Made by a program: the position numbers and the translations under genes. The notes under the pieces were generated by a model. That model saw nothing but the letters and a program-made list of their open reading frames with translations. It searched no databases and was not told the DNA's origin. DNA of 64,000 nt from an uncultured Carboxylicivirga sp. (GTDB taxonomy: Bacteria; Bacteroidota; Bacteroidia; Bacteroidales; Marinilabiliaceae). The stretch lies in contig CANLLN010000001.1 in assembly GCA_947491945.1 (NCBI GenBank), positions 1-64,000 of the forward strand, read 5' to 3'. Positions 4,684-55,725 of this stretch are shown one piece after another; the first letter of the stretch is position 1; the number at the start of each line of letters is the position of its first letter.

Positions 4684-7191
4684 ATGGTGATCAGACTTTT
4701 CTTTTTCATATTCCTCTGTGGCTGTGGCCAGCCGCTATTTGCCATGGCACGTATCGACTCAATGCTTCAGCGTCTGACTTTGGCCGAAAAAGTGGATTTG
4801 TTATTTGTCGACAGAAGCGATTCGCTGCCTGGTGATACCCTCATGTTGTTTCACCAATACCCGTTTTTACATGGCAAAGAGATGGATATCGATACGGTCG
4901 GATGGCCTATGCCCAACGCCTATACACTGTCGGCTCTCACCGATTCTAATTTAATTCATCAGTTTTACAAAGGCTACTATGCTGCGCATATTTCTAATGG
5001 TCTGTGTGGCGTGCTGGTGCCTGACCGCCTTCCCAATGTAGGCGTTGTGTATACCGGCCGCAGTAAGGCTTTGGATGACTTGCCCCGCATTATTGATTTT
5101 CCCTGTGAGTTGTTGGATAAGCAGCTGTTTCGTTACTTGAGAAATGAAGGGGAGGAGGATATAGATTATGCACAAATAGGTATGCCATTGCTGGGAGCAT
5201 TACACCGGCCATTGGATGCAGCGGTTTCCTTTCGGGAGATGATGAAGTTTAATTACCTGTTTTGGCAGGACGGTGATGAGACTTGTCGGAAGTTGTTGCT
5301 GAAGGCCTTTGAGACCGGCTTTTTGTCAGGAGACATACTGGATGCCAAGCTCAGGCGTTTGATGCGGTATGTGATGGGAGATGCTTCTTCCGTAAGGGAT
5401 GAGGTGAGGCCACAAAGAGGCATTCGCGAGCAAGTGTTTTGCGGTGCTGTATCAGCCTATCAGCGACGTAAGGTATTACCTTTAAATCGGGTGGATACAC
5501 TTTCCTGTACAATAAGGGTGGCTACTGATAGCGATGTGCGTCCTTTTATAGAAAAGCTTAAGCGGTATCACCCGCAGCCGGCACAGGAGGTGTCGAATGC
5601 CCTTCGGGTGCTTGTTTCCGATAGTCTGCCCCTTCTGAGGGAGGCATTGGCAGACTATGAAGAAAAGGGCGCCTTGGGGGATGTTAATGTGCTGGTATAC
5701 GGGGGTATACTCCATAGGAGCGATGTGGATCGCTTGCTTCCTGTTTTCGATGTGCTTATTCTTATGCCTCAACGCATGCATCATTCGTGGTCGATGATGG
5801 CACAAGCGCTTTATGGAGGCTTGCCCCTTAGTGGTCAGTCTGCCCTCGATAGTTGGTTGCAGCAGCAAGGCTTTCAGCGGGTGAATACGGCGGCACAGCG
5901 TCTGTCTTATGCGCTGATTCCGGAAACAGCATTCCCTCGTGACTCGATGGCTAAGATTGATAGCATTGTGCATGATGCCATACGGGAGAAGGCAACCCCC
6001 GGCGCCCAGCTATTGGTGGTTAAAAATGGTCGTATTGTGGTAGATAAGTGCTATGGGCATCATACCTACGATAAGCAGCAGGAAGTGAAAAGGAACGATC
6101 TTTACGACGTGGCATCCATCACAAAGCTGGCGGTTACCTTCCCTTTGGTGATGAAGCTGTACGAGCAGGGACGCATAGATTTGGAAGCCACCTTATCGGA
6201 ATATATCCCGGGTATTGACACTACTGATAAGGGTGATATCACCCTACGCGAGTTACTGGTACATCAGAGTGGACTTATCAGTTATCTGCCTTTTCATATT
6301 AACGCGCTGGATCGCTCTTCATTGGGCAAGCGTACTTTGTATAGTCGGCATTATTCGCGTTTATACAATATTCGCGTTGATACCCGCCTTTATCAGAATA
6401 AAAATGCTCGTTTTCGGAGCGATGTATTTAATAAAAAGGAGCAGGGGATGTATACGCGCCAGGTGAGCAAAGGCCTGTTTATGAATGAGAGTTATGTGGA
6501 CTCCATGTATGCACAAATATATGCTTCGAAGCGCTACGATAAAACTTATCGTTACAGCGACCTGGGGTATTATCTCTTGCAGAAGGTGATTGAGCGGCAA
6601 GCCGGAATGACCATCGATCAGCTGTTTAACCAGGTTATAGCCTCTCGTCTGGGTGCCTCGCGTATGCTCTACAGACCCTTGGAACGTTTTGCGGATACCG
6701 AGATAATACCTACCGAGAATGATCTGGCCTTTAGGCGCAGTTTGCTTGATGGTTATGTGCACGACCAGGGAGCGGCTATGTTAGGCGGTGTTGGTGCTCA
6801 TGCCGGCCTTTTTGCTACCGCCGGTGACTTGGCTAAGCTGGGGCAGCTACTCTTGAATGAAGGTACCTATGGCGGGCAGCGTTTCATAAAGCCCGAAACC
6901 ATTGGCCGCTTTACGCAGACAGTGAATCATGGTAACCGGCGTGGCCTGGGGGTGGATAAACCTGAGCTTGAGCCGGGCGAGAATAGTCATGTATCACAAA
7001 GAGTGTCGGCGGCTTCTTATGGTCATACAGGTTTTACCGGTACCATCTTTTGGCTTGACCCCGAGCATAATTTGATGTATATTTTCCTGTCCAATCGAAT
7101 TCATCCATGGGCTTACAATAAAAAGTTGATTGAGATGAATGTGAGAACACAAATACAAGATGTAATTTACAATAGTCTGGTGCCCCACTGA
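4684..7191 (+). CDS. Degenerate GH3-like plus class C beta-lactamase-like serine hydrolase
   Basis: Exported two-part protein of 835 residues. The signal peptide is about 1-20; LCGC near residue 13 could be a lipobox. The first 400 residues resemble a shrunken glycoside hydrolase family 3 protein: the opening LTLAEKVDLLF matches the usual GH3 start, and GALHRPLDAAVSFREMMKFN and a later C-terminal-like sandwich follow, but the region is far shorter than an intact GH3 N domain and no catalytic Asp motif is recognised. From about residue 425 a serine beta-lactamase/esterase domain carries SITK (SxxK nucleophile), YSDLGYY (Tyr motif) and GHTGFTGT. Full-length GH3-beta-lactamase fusions occur in Bacteroidetes and are linked to amino sugars or murein. 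The adjacent nagB fits that. Confidence 0.82.
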   Translation: MVIRLFFFIFLCGCGQPLFAMARIDSMLQRLTLAEKVDLLFVDRSDSLPGDTLMLFHQYPFLHGKEMDIDTVGWPMPNAYTLSALTDSNLIHQFYKGYYAAHISNGLCGVLVPDRLPNVGVVYTGRSKALDDLPRIIDFPCELLDKQLFRYLRNEGEEDIDYAQIGMPLLGALHRPLDAAVSFREMMKFNYLFWQDGDETCRKLLLKAFETGFLSGDILDAKLRRLMRYVMGDASSVRDEVRPQRGIREQVFCGAVSAYQRRKVLPLNRVDTLSCTIRVATDSDVRPFIEKLKRYHPQPAQEVSNALRVLVSDSLPLLREALADYEEKGALGDVNVLVYGGILHRSDVDRLLPVFDVLILMPQRMHHSWSMMAQALYGGLPLSGQSALDSWLQQQGFQRVNTAAQRLSYALIPETAFPRDSMAKIDSIVHDAIREKATPGAQLLVVKNGRIVVDKCYGHHTYDKQQEVKRNDLYDVASITKLAVTFPLVMKLYEQGRIDLEATLSEYIPGIDTTDKGDITLRELLVHQSGLISYLPFHINALDRSSLGKRTLYSRHYSRLYNIRVDTRLYQNKNARFRSDVFNKKEQGMYTRQVSKGLFMNESYVDSMYAQIYASKRYDKTYRYSDLGYYLLQKVIERQAGMTIDQLFNQVIASRLGASRMLYRPLERFADTEIIPTENDLAFRRSLLDGYVHDQGAAMLGGVGAHAGLFATAGDLAKLGQLLLNEGTYGGQRFIKPETIGRFTQTVNHGNRRGLGVDKPELEPGENSHVSQRVSAASYGHTGFTGTIFWLDPEHNLMYIFLSNRIHPWAYNKKLIEMNVRTQIQDVIYNSLVPH

Positions 7192-38436: not shown

Positions 38437-38492
38437 TAATGGTAAAGTTTAATGGTTAATTATTAATGGTTAGTTGTTACTTAGTGCTTTAG
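38437..38492 (-). repeat. Heptamer-periodic array upstream of queF
   Basis: Eight consecutive degenerate 7-mers on the plus strand: TAATGGT, AAAGTTT, AATGGTT, AATTATT, AATGGTT, AGTTGTT, ACTTAGT, GCTTTAG. Read on the queF strand they give AACCATT-type units that end two bases before the TTG start. Confidence 0.6.
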
Positions 38493-38567
38493 GTTTTATT
38501 TGGCGGTTTTGATGTTCCGGGGTACTTTTACATAATAGCTTCATCCTCCTTCCCACTGCATGGGGTT

Positions 38568-54414: not shown

Positions 54415-54734
54415 GTAGGGATGAGAGGGGAGTGAGGTGAGTCTAGCAGTAGGATTATGGATCTTAACTAGCTTCCCGCCACGCGCCACAAGCTGCTAAC
54501 CCCTAATAACTAACAACTAATTTGGACAAGCCAGAAAAGTACAAAGTATCAAGATTTGAGTATCAAGACTATTGGCAGCTTGCTTATATTTTCTGCCAAA
54601 AATTACAGGAATTCAATTGATAGACACTAACAACTAACCCCTAATAACTAACAGCTAACAACTAACCCTTAACAACTAGCAACTAACCCCTAATAGCTAA
54701 TAGCTAGCAACTAACCACTAACAACTAACAGTCA
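54415..54734. repeat. Gene-free stretch dominated by heptamer arrays
   Basis: About 320 bases, no gene. It begins with purine-rich ATGAGAG/GGGAGTG/AGGTGAG units (54420-54445), then GCTAACC/CCTAATA/ACTAACA units (54495-54522), a short unique piece, and the main array at 54626-54737. Confidence 0.65.
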
Positions 54735-54737
54735 ATG
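54626..54737 (+). repeat. ACTAACA heptamer array running into a start codon
   Basis: Fifteen consecutive degenerate 7-mers, consensus (A/G)CTAACA, in one unbroken register: ACTAACA, ACTAACC, CCTAATA, ACTAACA, GCTAACA, ACTAACC, CTTAACA, ACTAGCA, ACTAACC and so on. A sixteenth unit, GTCAATG, contains the start codon of the MBL-fold gene. Confidence 0.8.
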
Positions 54738-55520
54738 ATACAAGTTTGTGCGATCGCCTCGGGAAGTAACGGCAATTGTTATTACATCGGAAATGAAAAG
54801 GAAGCCATATTGGTGGATGCGGGTATTTCGCGCCGTCAGATTTTGAAGCGGATGCGCGAGATGCGTCTGGATATTGCTAAGGTGAAGGCCGTGTTTATCT
54901 CACACGAGCACTCTGATCATATTAAGGGATTACGTGTATTGTGCGATATGCATGGCATTGATGCCTACCTTACACGCGATACACTACAAAAGGCACATCG
55001 TAATTATCATCCGGAGACAGCGCAGGTGTTCGAAGCAGGTGATGTGCTTTGTGTGGGTCCATTTACCGTTCACACCTTCGGTAAGCAACATGATGCCATC
55101 GACCCCACGAGCTTTCGCGTAGAAATAGAGGGGCAAAGCATAGGTGTGATGACCGATATTGGTTGTGCCTGCGATGCTGTGAAATCCCATTTGGCGGCCT
55201 GCGATCATGTTTTTCTAGAGAGCAATTATGATGAGCGCCTACTGGAGGAAGGACCCTACCCTTATTACCTTAAGCAGCGGGTTAAATCCGATCATGGACA
55301 CCTGAGTAACCGTCAGGCGGTTGAATTGGTTGAGCAATTGAAGCCGGGTAAGTTAAAGACGCTTTTTCTTTCGCACATTTCAGCCGATAATAACCGTGTG
55401 GAGATTGCGATGAAGGCCTTTGAGCACCTTTCAAATCGTTATCGTATTTTGCCTACCAATCGCTATGCGCCATCAGAAGTGTTAATCATCGGGGAGGAGC
55501 AGTTGGCTTTGTTTAGTTAA
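54735..55520 (+). CDS. WalJ/YycJ-like metallo-beta-lactamase-fold hydrolase
   Basis: 261-residue cytoplasmic MBL-fold protein. The metal motif ISHEHSDHIKG (HxHxDH) follows ILVDAGISRRQILKRM; further ligands are in MTDIGCACD and LSHISADNN. It matches the YycJ/WalJ group, single-domain nucleases or phosphodiesterases linked to DNA repair and cell-wall signalling in Firmicutes; role in Bacteroidetes unknown. No conventional ribosome site is visible because a 7-nt array reaches the ATG. Confidence 0.9.
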   Translation: MIQVCAIASGSNGNCYYIGNEKEAILVDAGISRRQILKRMREMRLDIAKVKAVFISHEHSDHIKGLRVLCDMHGIDAYLTRDTLQKAHRNYHPETAQVFEAGDVLCVGPFTVHTFGKQHDAIDPTSFRVEIEGQSIGVMTDIGCACDAVKSHLAACDHVFLESNYDERLLEEGPYPYYLKQRVKSDHGHLSNRQAVELVEQLKPGKLKTLFLSHISADNNRVEIAMKAFEHLSNRYRILPTNRYAPSEVLIIGEEQLALFS

Positions 55521-55532
55521 TAAAATTAGAAA

Positions 55533-55595
55533 AAGTAAGAAGTGAGAGGTGAGTAATGAGTAGGGTGCGATGAGAAATGGGAAGTGAGAAATTGC
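55533..55595 (+). repeat. Purine-rich heptamer array
   Basis: Nine degenerate 7-mers in register: AAGTAAG, AAGTGAG, AGGTGAG, TAATGAG, TAGGGTG, CGATGAG, AAATGGG, AAGTGAG, AAATTGC. It starts 12 bases after the MBL gene stop. Consensus differs from the upstream array. Confidence 0.7.
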
Positions 55596-55673
55596 AAAAA
55601 AACTGTGGGACTGTTGAAATGTAATACGGATTACTGACTTCGGACTTGGATTTCGAGTTTTACAATAATTATC

Positions 55674-55715
55674 GAGCTGCCAATCGCTATCAGCTAGCGG
55701 CTAGTAGCTATAAGC
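55674..55715 (+). repeat. xAxxxGC heptamer array before the DUF819 gene
   Basis: Six degenerate 7-mers: GAGCTGC, CAATCGC, TATCAGC, TAGCGGC, TAGTAGC, TATAAGC, ending 10 bases before the DUF819 ATG. A CTTCGGA-type run (about 55635-55660) lies just before. Confidence 0.65.
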
Positions 55716-55725
55716 TTTTGAAAAT

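Follow-up and report, generated by a model that had tools for sequence, protein, structure and literature searches.

What places a long run of seven-nucleotide words directly against a bacterial start codon, and where do such runs come from? The question arises in a 64,000-nucleotide (nt) stretch of an uncultured Carboxylicivirga sp. (contig CANLLN010000001.1, positions 1 to 64,000; hereafter the window), in which a degenerate heptamer array runs into the ATG of walJ, a gene for an MBL-fold hydrolase of 261 amino acids (54735..55520, plus strand) that is 79% identical to a Carboxylicivirga mesophila protein. The name walJ is the label of an initial annotation of this DNA, and all NCBIfam matches of the 261-residue protein fall under cut-offs. 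We report that heptamer arrays of this kind flank genes of the S23p/IVP family in the spacers between protein-coding genes, and argue that the walJ array is probably a relic or short version, without an open reading frame (ORF), of an insertion element akin to the intervening sequences (IVSs) of 23S ribosomal RNA (rRNA).

A heptamer array in register with the walJ start codon

The array occupies 54626..54730 on the plus strand and consists of fifteen heptamers in unbroken register, followed by a sixteenth word, GTCAATG (54731..54737), that includes the walJ start codon (54735-54737), just as the initial annotation had observed. The start codon is backed by homologue alignments that begin at residue 1 or 2. 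The consensus of the units is ACTAACA, a CTA-type word, of the kind that spacers carry next to the start codon; T3 and A4 are present in 15/15 units and C2 in 14/15, and the remaining positions vary. Self-identity of the array reaches 0.70, 0.66, 0.68 and 0.74 at lags 7, 14, 21 and 28, compared to 0.12-0.43 at the remaining lags from 1 to 30, and at lag 7 it has a segment score of 44, whereas non-coding sequence of the contig, simulated 100 times with an order-2 Markov model, scores 16 at most. The array lies outside any rRNA gene, in a 320-nt spacer between two co-directional protein-coding ORFs (54415..54734, plus strand) that also holds a shorter period-7 segment, and is positioned immediately 5′ of a start codon in a co-directional spacer.

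Tandem Repeats Finder reports both a period of 7 (score 98) and a period of 28 (score 119), and the latter, a higher-order period, suggests block duplications. It had been argued in the initial annotation that slippage could be set aside because the period never slips; this does not follow, because the walJ array has its 28-nt repeat and the 3′ arms of one element on two Nostoc plasmids, described below, differ by one 7-nt unit. Degenerate units and a 28-nt higher-order repeat would also suit a neutral microsatellite, in which a heptamer of a long spacer was multiplied by replication slippage, preferably in 7-nt steps, and later blurred by point mutation, with no element involved. In most repeat-rich genomes, heptanucleotides are reported to outnumber the other classes of repeat, and a 7-nt polymerase contact has been proposed (Mrazek 2007, as cited in PMC4679880). 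We nevertheless consider such an origin rather unlikely, on the evidence of the loci that follow.

Heptamer arms flank S23p/IVP genes in gene spacers

In its full form, the element consists of a 5′ heptamer arm after the upstream gene, an S23p/IVP ORF, and a 3′ arm, in many cases an inverted copy of the first, before the next gene, whose start codon in Bacteroidota usually comes right after the 3′ arm. An example is the hisF–hisIE spacer of locus L141, where GCTANNN arrays lie on both sides of a small ORF; NCBIfam confirms hisF and hisIE and identifies the small ORF as TIGR02436, four helix bundle protein. TIGR02436/PF05635 is the family of 23S rRNA intervening sequences (S23p/IVP), and PF05635 matches are present in 53/60 genomes of the family and 116/148 genomes of the phylum.

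The IVP loci of all our surveys were chosen for carrying an IVP ORF. Those of the family and phylum are the best match per genome in the highest-scoring genomes, and those of the walJ genus are 26/44 matches in five genomes, two of the 26 with a stop codon inside the match. Five stretches of genome G000 that had been selected for holding matches (L184, L187, L190, L200 and L201) were left out of the genus IVP counts, the match of the walJ array to IVP flanks, the counts of CTA pairs and duplexes, the lag-identity comparison and the family gene controls, and were included in the sample of 593 spacers, the Shine–Dalgarno count and part of the analysis of sense-strand preference.

Inverted arms are present in many copies. 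In the family, the mean score of inverted flanks is 29.9 at 29 IVP loci (L264 dropped), compared to 17.0 at 1061 control genes and 18.1 when flanks of different IVP loci are paired, and 19/29 loci exceed the 99th percentile of those controls. Period-7 arrays (score of at least 11) flank 19/30 IVP loci of the family and 50/1061 control genes, discounting a masked run in L270. Within the genus, 15/26 IVP ORFs have an array with a score of at least 11 within 250 nt, compared to 31/850 genes (p = 3e-14), and inverted flanks beyond the control 99th percentile occur at 16/26. Duplex energy gives a weaker result: at 10/26 genus loci, the pairing of the locus's own flanks falls under the 5th percentile of mismatched pairs. 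For the phylum, where L370, L377 and L381 were dropped because the motif was not found, arrays occur at 12/27 IVP loci and inverted scores above 25.5 at 11/27, in a survey with 4 control genes.

The period of 7 is also apparent without any threshold: lag-7 identity before and after IVP ORFs is 0.39/0.44 in the family and 0.38/0.40 in the phylum (0.29/0.31 in control spacers), and identity peaks recur in IVP flanks at lags 14 and 21. The setting in Bacteroidota is co-directional, with a co-directional gene before the IVP ORF at 26/26 genus loci and after it at 25/26 (24 within 110 nt; control 414/841). The association extends to cyanobacterial plasmids, where 10/10 S23p loci, hand-picked from 28 plasmid records, have period-7 segments (score of at least 10 at these loci, 11 for controls) and 7/10 reach an inverted score of at least 30, compared to 1/77 control genes. 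Across the family, the 7/60 genomes without IVP matches have no RCTAACA array (Spearman 0.45; the cross-genome Fisher tests are rough). Arrays thus concentrated at IVP genes, often as inverted pairs, go beyond what slippage alone yields and argue against the microsatellite.

The similarity of IVP proteins to Avd, the accessory protein of diversity-generating retroelements, raises a further possibility, that an Avd-related four-helix protein takes part, by way of an RNA intermediate, in writing or varying the arrays and that their degeneracy is actively made. Two of the three IVP proteins tested are weakly similar to NCBIfam DivGenRetAVD (E = 1.3e-7 and 0.001; below cut-off), PF05635 is described as resembling Avd (PMC10053308), and degenerate words are found in both arms. 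Variation in the walJ array is, however, not limited to adenines and affects other bases too, and we hold active writing to be extremely improbable.

The same spacers occur with and without the IVP ORF

Forms with and without the ORF exist at the same sites. In the spacer between prfA and pyrF (identities confirmed by NCBIfam on L126), an IVP ORF is present in four genomes of one genus (G034, G053, G057 and G061), three of which have clear AACTTTN words 3′ of the ORF and AAAGTTN-type words 5′ of it; in a fifth genome of that genus (G015), AACTTTC words precede pyrF without an ORF. A GCTANNA array lies 3-6 nt before pyrF in four genomes of the walJ genus (G000, G004, G006 and G012) and in two of other genera (G022 and G039), at loci L271, L273, L275, L280, L281 and L277, respectively, while the rest of the spacer differs. 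Genomes G005 and G009 have other heptamer words before pyrF, and further species have none. Altogether, 13/30 parsed pyrF spacers hold a segment with a score of at least 11, compared to 24/593 spacers of the sampled genomes; in this survey of walJ and pyrF loci, start codons appear to be misassigned at L284, L287, L319 and L320, and L301 was unparsable.

On two Nostoc plasmids, the spacer after a gene for a TraM-domain protein consists of GGGAACA arms around a four-helix ORF, and the 3′ arms of these two copies are those that differ by one 7-nt unit. A third Nostoc plasmid has the same flanks and GGGAAC/TTCCCTA words, and no ORF was found there by profile search.

The heptamer words of the pyrF spacer differ between species, which counts against a microsatellite grown from one heptamer. 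The same locus bears on a functional leader, that is, a repeated word recognized by a protein or the ribosome that tunes translation of walJ, as proposed for TAACTGA repeats: the GCTANNA array stays next to pyrF in six genomes of three genera despite the differing remainder of the spacer, which such a leader would explain, whereas the turnover of words at one site is not what it predicts.

The walJ array as a probable remnant of the element

A leader that affects translation, a protein-binding ladder and an insertion element had been offered as explanations in the initial annotation, and the insertion element fits best. We infer that the walJ array belongs to this class from its type, setting and vocabulary rather than by direct demonstration, and judge that it is probably what remains of an IVS-like insertion element of gene spacers, or a short form of one, without the ORF. 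As to vocabulary, the walJ array matches 21/52 genus IVP flanks at a score of at least 20, whereas 60 control pools have a mean of 9.0 such matches and none reaches 21. In genome G014 (L327), a TIGR02436 ORF is embedded in CACTAAC, CTTAACC and ATTAACA arrays, one of which reaches its ATG, and these words are nearly those of the walJ array, which thereby shares its words with a copy that carries the ORF.

A number of results weigh against this assignment, some at walJ itself and some in the class as a whole. No terminal inverted repeat was found in the walJ spacer (inverted score 17, 14th percentile), and a hairpin inside it is ruled out by this score and an unremarkable duplex energy. Neither in the window nor at any of 115 walJ loci does a profile built from 55 IVP proteins detect an IVP ORF, although the same profile recovers IVP ORFs at pyrF and on cyanobacterial plasmids, and this makes the assignment slightly less probable; motif scans at walJ were also without an IVP gene, and we use the profile result as the scans were less sensitive, having missed the IVP gene at pyrF in L295. 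That both the complementary arm and the IVP gene are missing at walJ is also as expected of a microsatellite. No IVP flank matches the walJ array with a score above 29, which does not exceed the control pools (mean maximum 30.8). A heptamer-like stretch further upstream (GTATCAA GATTTGA GTATCAA GAC; 54542..54575, plus strand) resembles by eye the 5′ arm of two IVP elements (L250 and L251), but as a matching arm it is ruled out, with 2 matches of the TATCAAG stretch to genus IVP flanks and 2.7 in controls.

The walJ array is also not kept in the relatives examined, contrary to the conservation considered in the initial annotation: the 13 genus orthologues, its own included, have other words or no array, and a search of the family found a segment with a score of at least 9 at 8/26 parsed walJ loci (own included), with words that differ or an array that is missing. 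In the class, 11/26 genus IVP ORFs have no array at a score of at least 11, and 16/77 control genes on Nostoc plasmids do have one. The arms are not inverted in L387, L388 and L393 (scores 19, 10 and 19), and L327 has direct rather than inverted arrays. By duplex energy, the 3′ flank of the same locus is the best partner of the 5′ flank at just 8/26 genus loci. Several cyanobacterial plasmid copies lie outside co-directional spacers, and arrays without a nearby IVP gene are common, with genomes G054, G041 and G027 rich in RCTAACA yet holding 3, 1 and 4 IVP matches.

If the walJ array is such a remnant, its history might be as follows. The complete element would be transcribed together with its neighbouring genes, and its arms would pair into an RNA stem that RNase III could cut, as in 23S rRNA intervening sequences (PMC4990558); by analogy with IVS biology, it would also spread as an element. 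At walJ, one arm and the ORF would have been lost, leaving an array of the 3′-arm type, which may then have grown and varied through duplication of 7-nt and 28-nt blocks and through point mutation. What is left would be a weakly folded, G-poor leader that is tolerated, and we propose that it is harmless because initiation here works without Shine–Dalgarno pairing.

Period-7 arrays in the genome, the family and the phylum

The initial annotation had made its proposal depend on a genome-wide 7-nt excess, and this excess is present: a 464-kb contig sample contains 9 non-coding period-7 segments (score of at least 11) where 0.48 are expected, and 2, 2, 1 and 2 segments for periods 5, 6, 8 and 9. 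Four of the nine flank walJ. At 80 loci around walJ relatives, we found 23 non-coding period-7 segments (score of at least 12); the remaining periods between 4 and 12 give 0-9.

Three tandem copies of RCTAACA, with up to 2 mismatches, occur in 29/60 family genomes and 13/21 genera, and the reversed control gives 6 matches in 5 genomes. At the phylum level, three copies of AGCTANN give 139 matches in 18/148 genomes, and a version with period 8 occurs once (1/148). The reversed AGCTANN control with period 7 gives 27 matches in 9/148 genomes, perhaps because it captures another heptamer word; as this control is not silent, specificity lies more in the period than in the word. The core that recurs in spacer arrays of the genome, family and phylum is often AGCTANN/CTAANNN, and a core word common to loci across the phylum is a further point against the microsatellite.

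In a few arrays the word switches without loss of register, from GTGAACA to GCTAACA (L010/L302), from GACCG to GCTAA (L227) and from TTAGC to CTAAC (L210). A single array of similar character with period 8 (score 16) lies in a spacer of G000 (C1:152082-152161; L091).

Start codons, ribosome sites and leader folding

The initial annotation had also tied the arrays to start codons, and the link holds, although it is modest. Of 406 co-directional spacers in three genomes, 10 have lag-7 CTA pairs in the last 60 nt before the start, compared to 3-5 for each of lags 5, 6, 8 and 9, to 5/406 in the 60 nt after the stop and to 2/406 for lag-7 TAG pairs before the start; two of the ten are the spacers that flank walJ. 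In a divergent spacer of G000 (L200, C37, positions 6468-6608), a period-7 array turns midway from TTAGGNN to CTAACAG, so that both genes are preceded, read in their own sense, by a CTA-type half.

The suggestion that the array replaces the normal ribosome site was not borne out. The Shine–Dalgarno core occurs at -20..-4 of 40/599 genes in the walJ genome and in 40, 43 and 50/599 further out, and since there is no excess, the array displaced no ribosome site and the loss of such a site is ruled out. From -13 to -10 before its start codons, this genome favours A, a preference that together with the absent Shine–Dalgarno excess agrees with the Bacteroidetes biology described in PMC6847099. The walJ leader folds less well than its shuffles (minimum free energy z = +1.86), and three loose Bacteroidota-type promoter patterns have no match in the walJ spacer, so that a promoter inside it was set aside.

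For a functional leader, these data add that the array adjoins the ATG and that words before starts have a preferred sense strand. The walJ orthologues tell otherwise, as some lack an array, some have different words and some have a very short spacer, and we regard a functional leader as very unlikely. In the ten other parsable orthologues of the genus, the spacer measures 36-510 nt.

Relation to known repeats and intervening sequences

Neither heptamer repeats nor S23p intervening sequences are new; what is of interest is their link, and the walJ array on its own is a minor case. The 23S rRNA IVS with an S23p ORF (PF05635, TIGR02436), such as the 428-nt IVS of Coxiella (PMC4990558), resembles the spacer elements in having a four-helix S23p/IVP ORF between terminal inverted repeats, and also a heptamer that is repeated immediately 5′ of the ORF with a copy number that varies between strains (PMC4990558). 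Unlike the rRNA IVS, the elements described here lie in spacers of protein-coding genes and have arms that are degenerate heptamer arrays of many words, and at walJ both the ORF and a second arm are missing. Sites that occur with and without an ORF also have a parallel in candidate phyla radiation (CPR) bacteria, where ORF-bearing and ORF-less insertions are found at the same rRNA sites and IVP ORFs are among them, whereas those insertions are in rRNA genes and mainly carry homing endonucleases (PMC11270868).

Among the heptamers themselves, TAACTGA repeats are known from Beggiatoaceae, Cyanobacteria and some Bacteroidetes (MacGregor 2015, PMC4679880). Like the arrays studied here, they are spacer heptamers mixed with related heptamers in genomes with few Shine–Dalgarno sites; in Beggiatoaceae they are mostly forward and just before start codons, and in some Bacteroidetes they are long (PMC4679880). 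The walJ unit is ACTAACA instead, and no tandem TAACTGA pair was found in the 90 IVP loci scanned. The GGGAATC and GGGGA(C/T)T heptamers of Xanthomonas and Nostoc are likewise degenerate spacer heptamers with some inverted pairs, but were interpreted as G-quadruplexes (PMC4692102), and the walJ array has no G-tracts. The terms S23 and four helix are absent from the main text of PMC4679880 and PMC4692102 in a term search, and within the open-access subset of the literature we found no paper that links heptamer repeats to S23p/IVP.

In many repeat-rich bacterial genomes, no long simple repeat is reported to be as common as the heptamer (Mrazek 2007, as cited in PMC4679880), and such repeats have been explained by slippage, a regulatory role or G-quadruplexes. 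The tie to S23p/IVP genes would offer these repeats a common origin that is testable in any genome. As a tentative generalization, which we consider possible though less likely than not, the heptanucleotide arrays of bacteria may for the most part stem from a single class of mobile IVS-like elements with an Avd-like four-helix S23p protein, as their arms or as what is left of them. Such elements would insert into gene spacers, in Bacteroidota immediately 5′ of start codons, would persist as hairpins in messenger RNA, and would leave ORF-less arrays in Bacteroidota, Cyanobacteria and probably xanthomonads and Beggiatoaceae.

On two cyanobacterial plasmids, of Pseudanabaena and Anabaena (L388 and L391), a four-helix gene with heptamer arrays lies between cas6 and cas4. 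Four-helix genes next to cas genes have been read as CRISPR-associated (PMC3936711); some 'four helix bundle' genes of operons, such as these two, could be spacer insertions rather than working parts of the operon.

Further period-7 segments of the window

Gene calls in this work are ORFs of at least 80-90 codons, chosen greedily without overlap, and spacer limits and some start codons are therefore approximate. The initial annotation overlooked three further period-7 segments around walJ. The first is the shorter segment of the 5′ spacer (54477..54520, plus strand; score 13), which contains CTAACCCCTAATAACTAACAACTAA, has the same orientation as the long array and is partly identical to it. 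The other two are 3′ of walJ on the plus strand: a GTGAG-type segment begins 9 nt past the stop codon (55530..55590; score 16), and a GCTANNA segment ends 9 nt short of the next start codon (55686..55716; score 12). By eye, the latter has relatives at the same place in G004 and G011 and a more diverged one in G005.

In G004 (L109), both walJ and the next gene are preceded by a composite of GGACTTCGGACTT-like sequence, AACCAAGCTG and GCTANNA, in this order, and a similar stretch is seen 3′ of walJ in the window (55600-55725; both by eye). This composite looks like a dispersed spacer repeat.

In another genome (G010 C579; L110), the contig breaks off within a GTGAGAA heptamer array just 3′ of walJ, a hint that heptamer arrays break assemblies. 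Away from walJ, the window holds one more period-7 segment, with a score of 17, upstream of a minus-strand ORF (38443..38498, minus strand).
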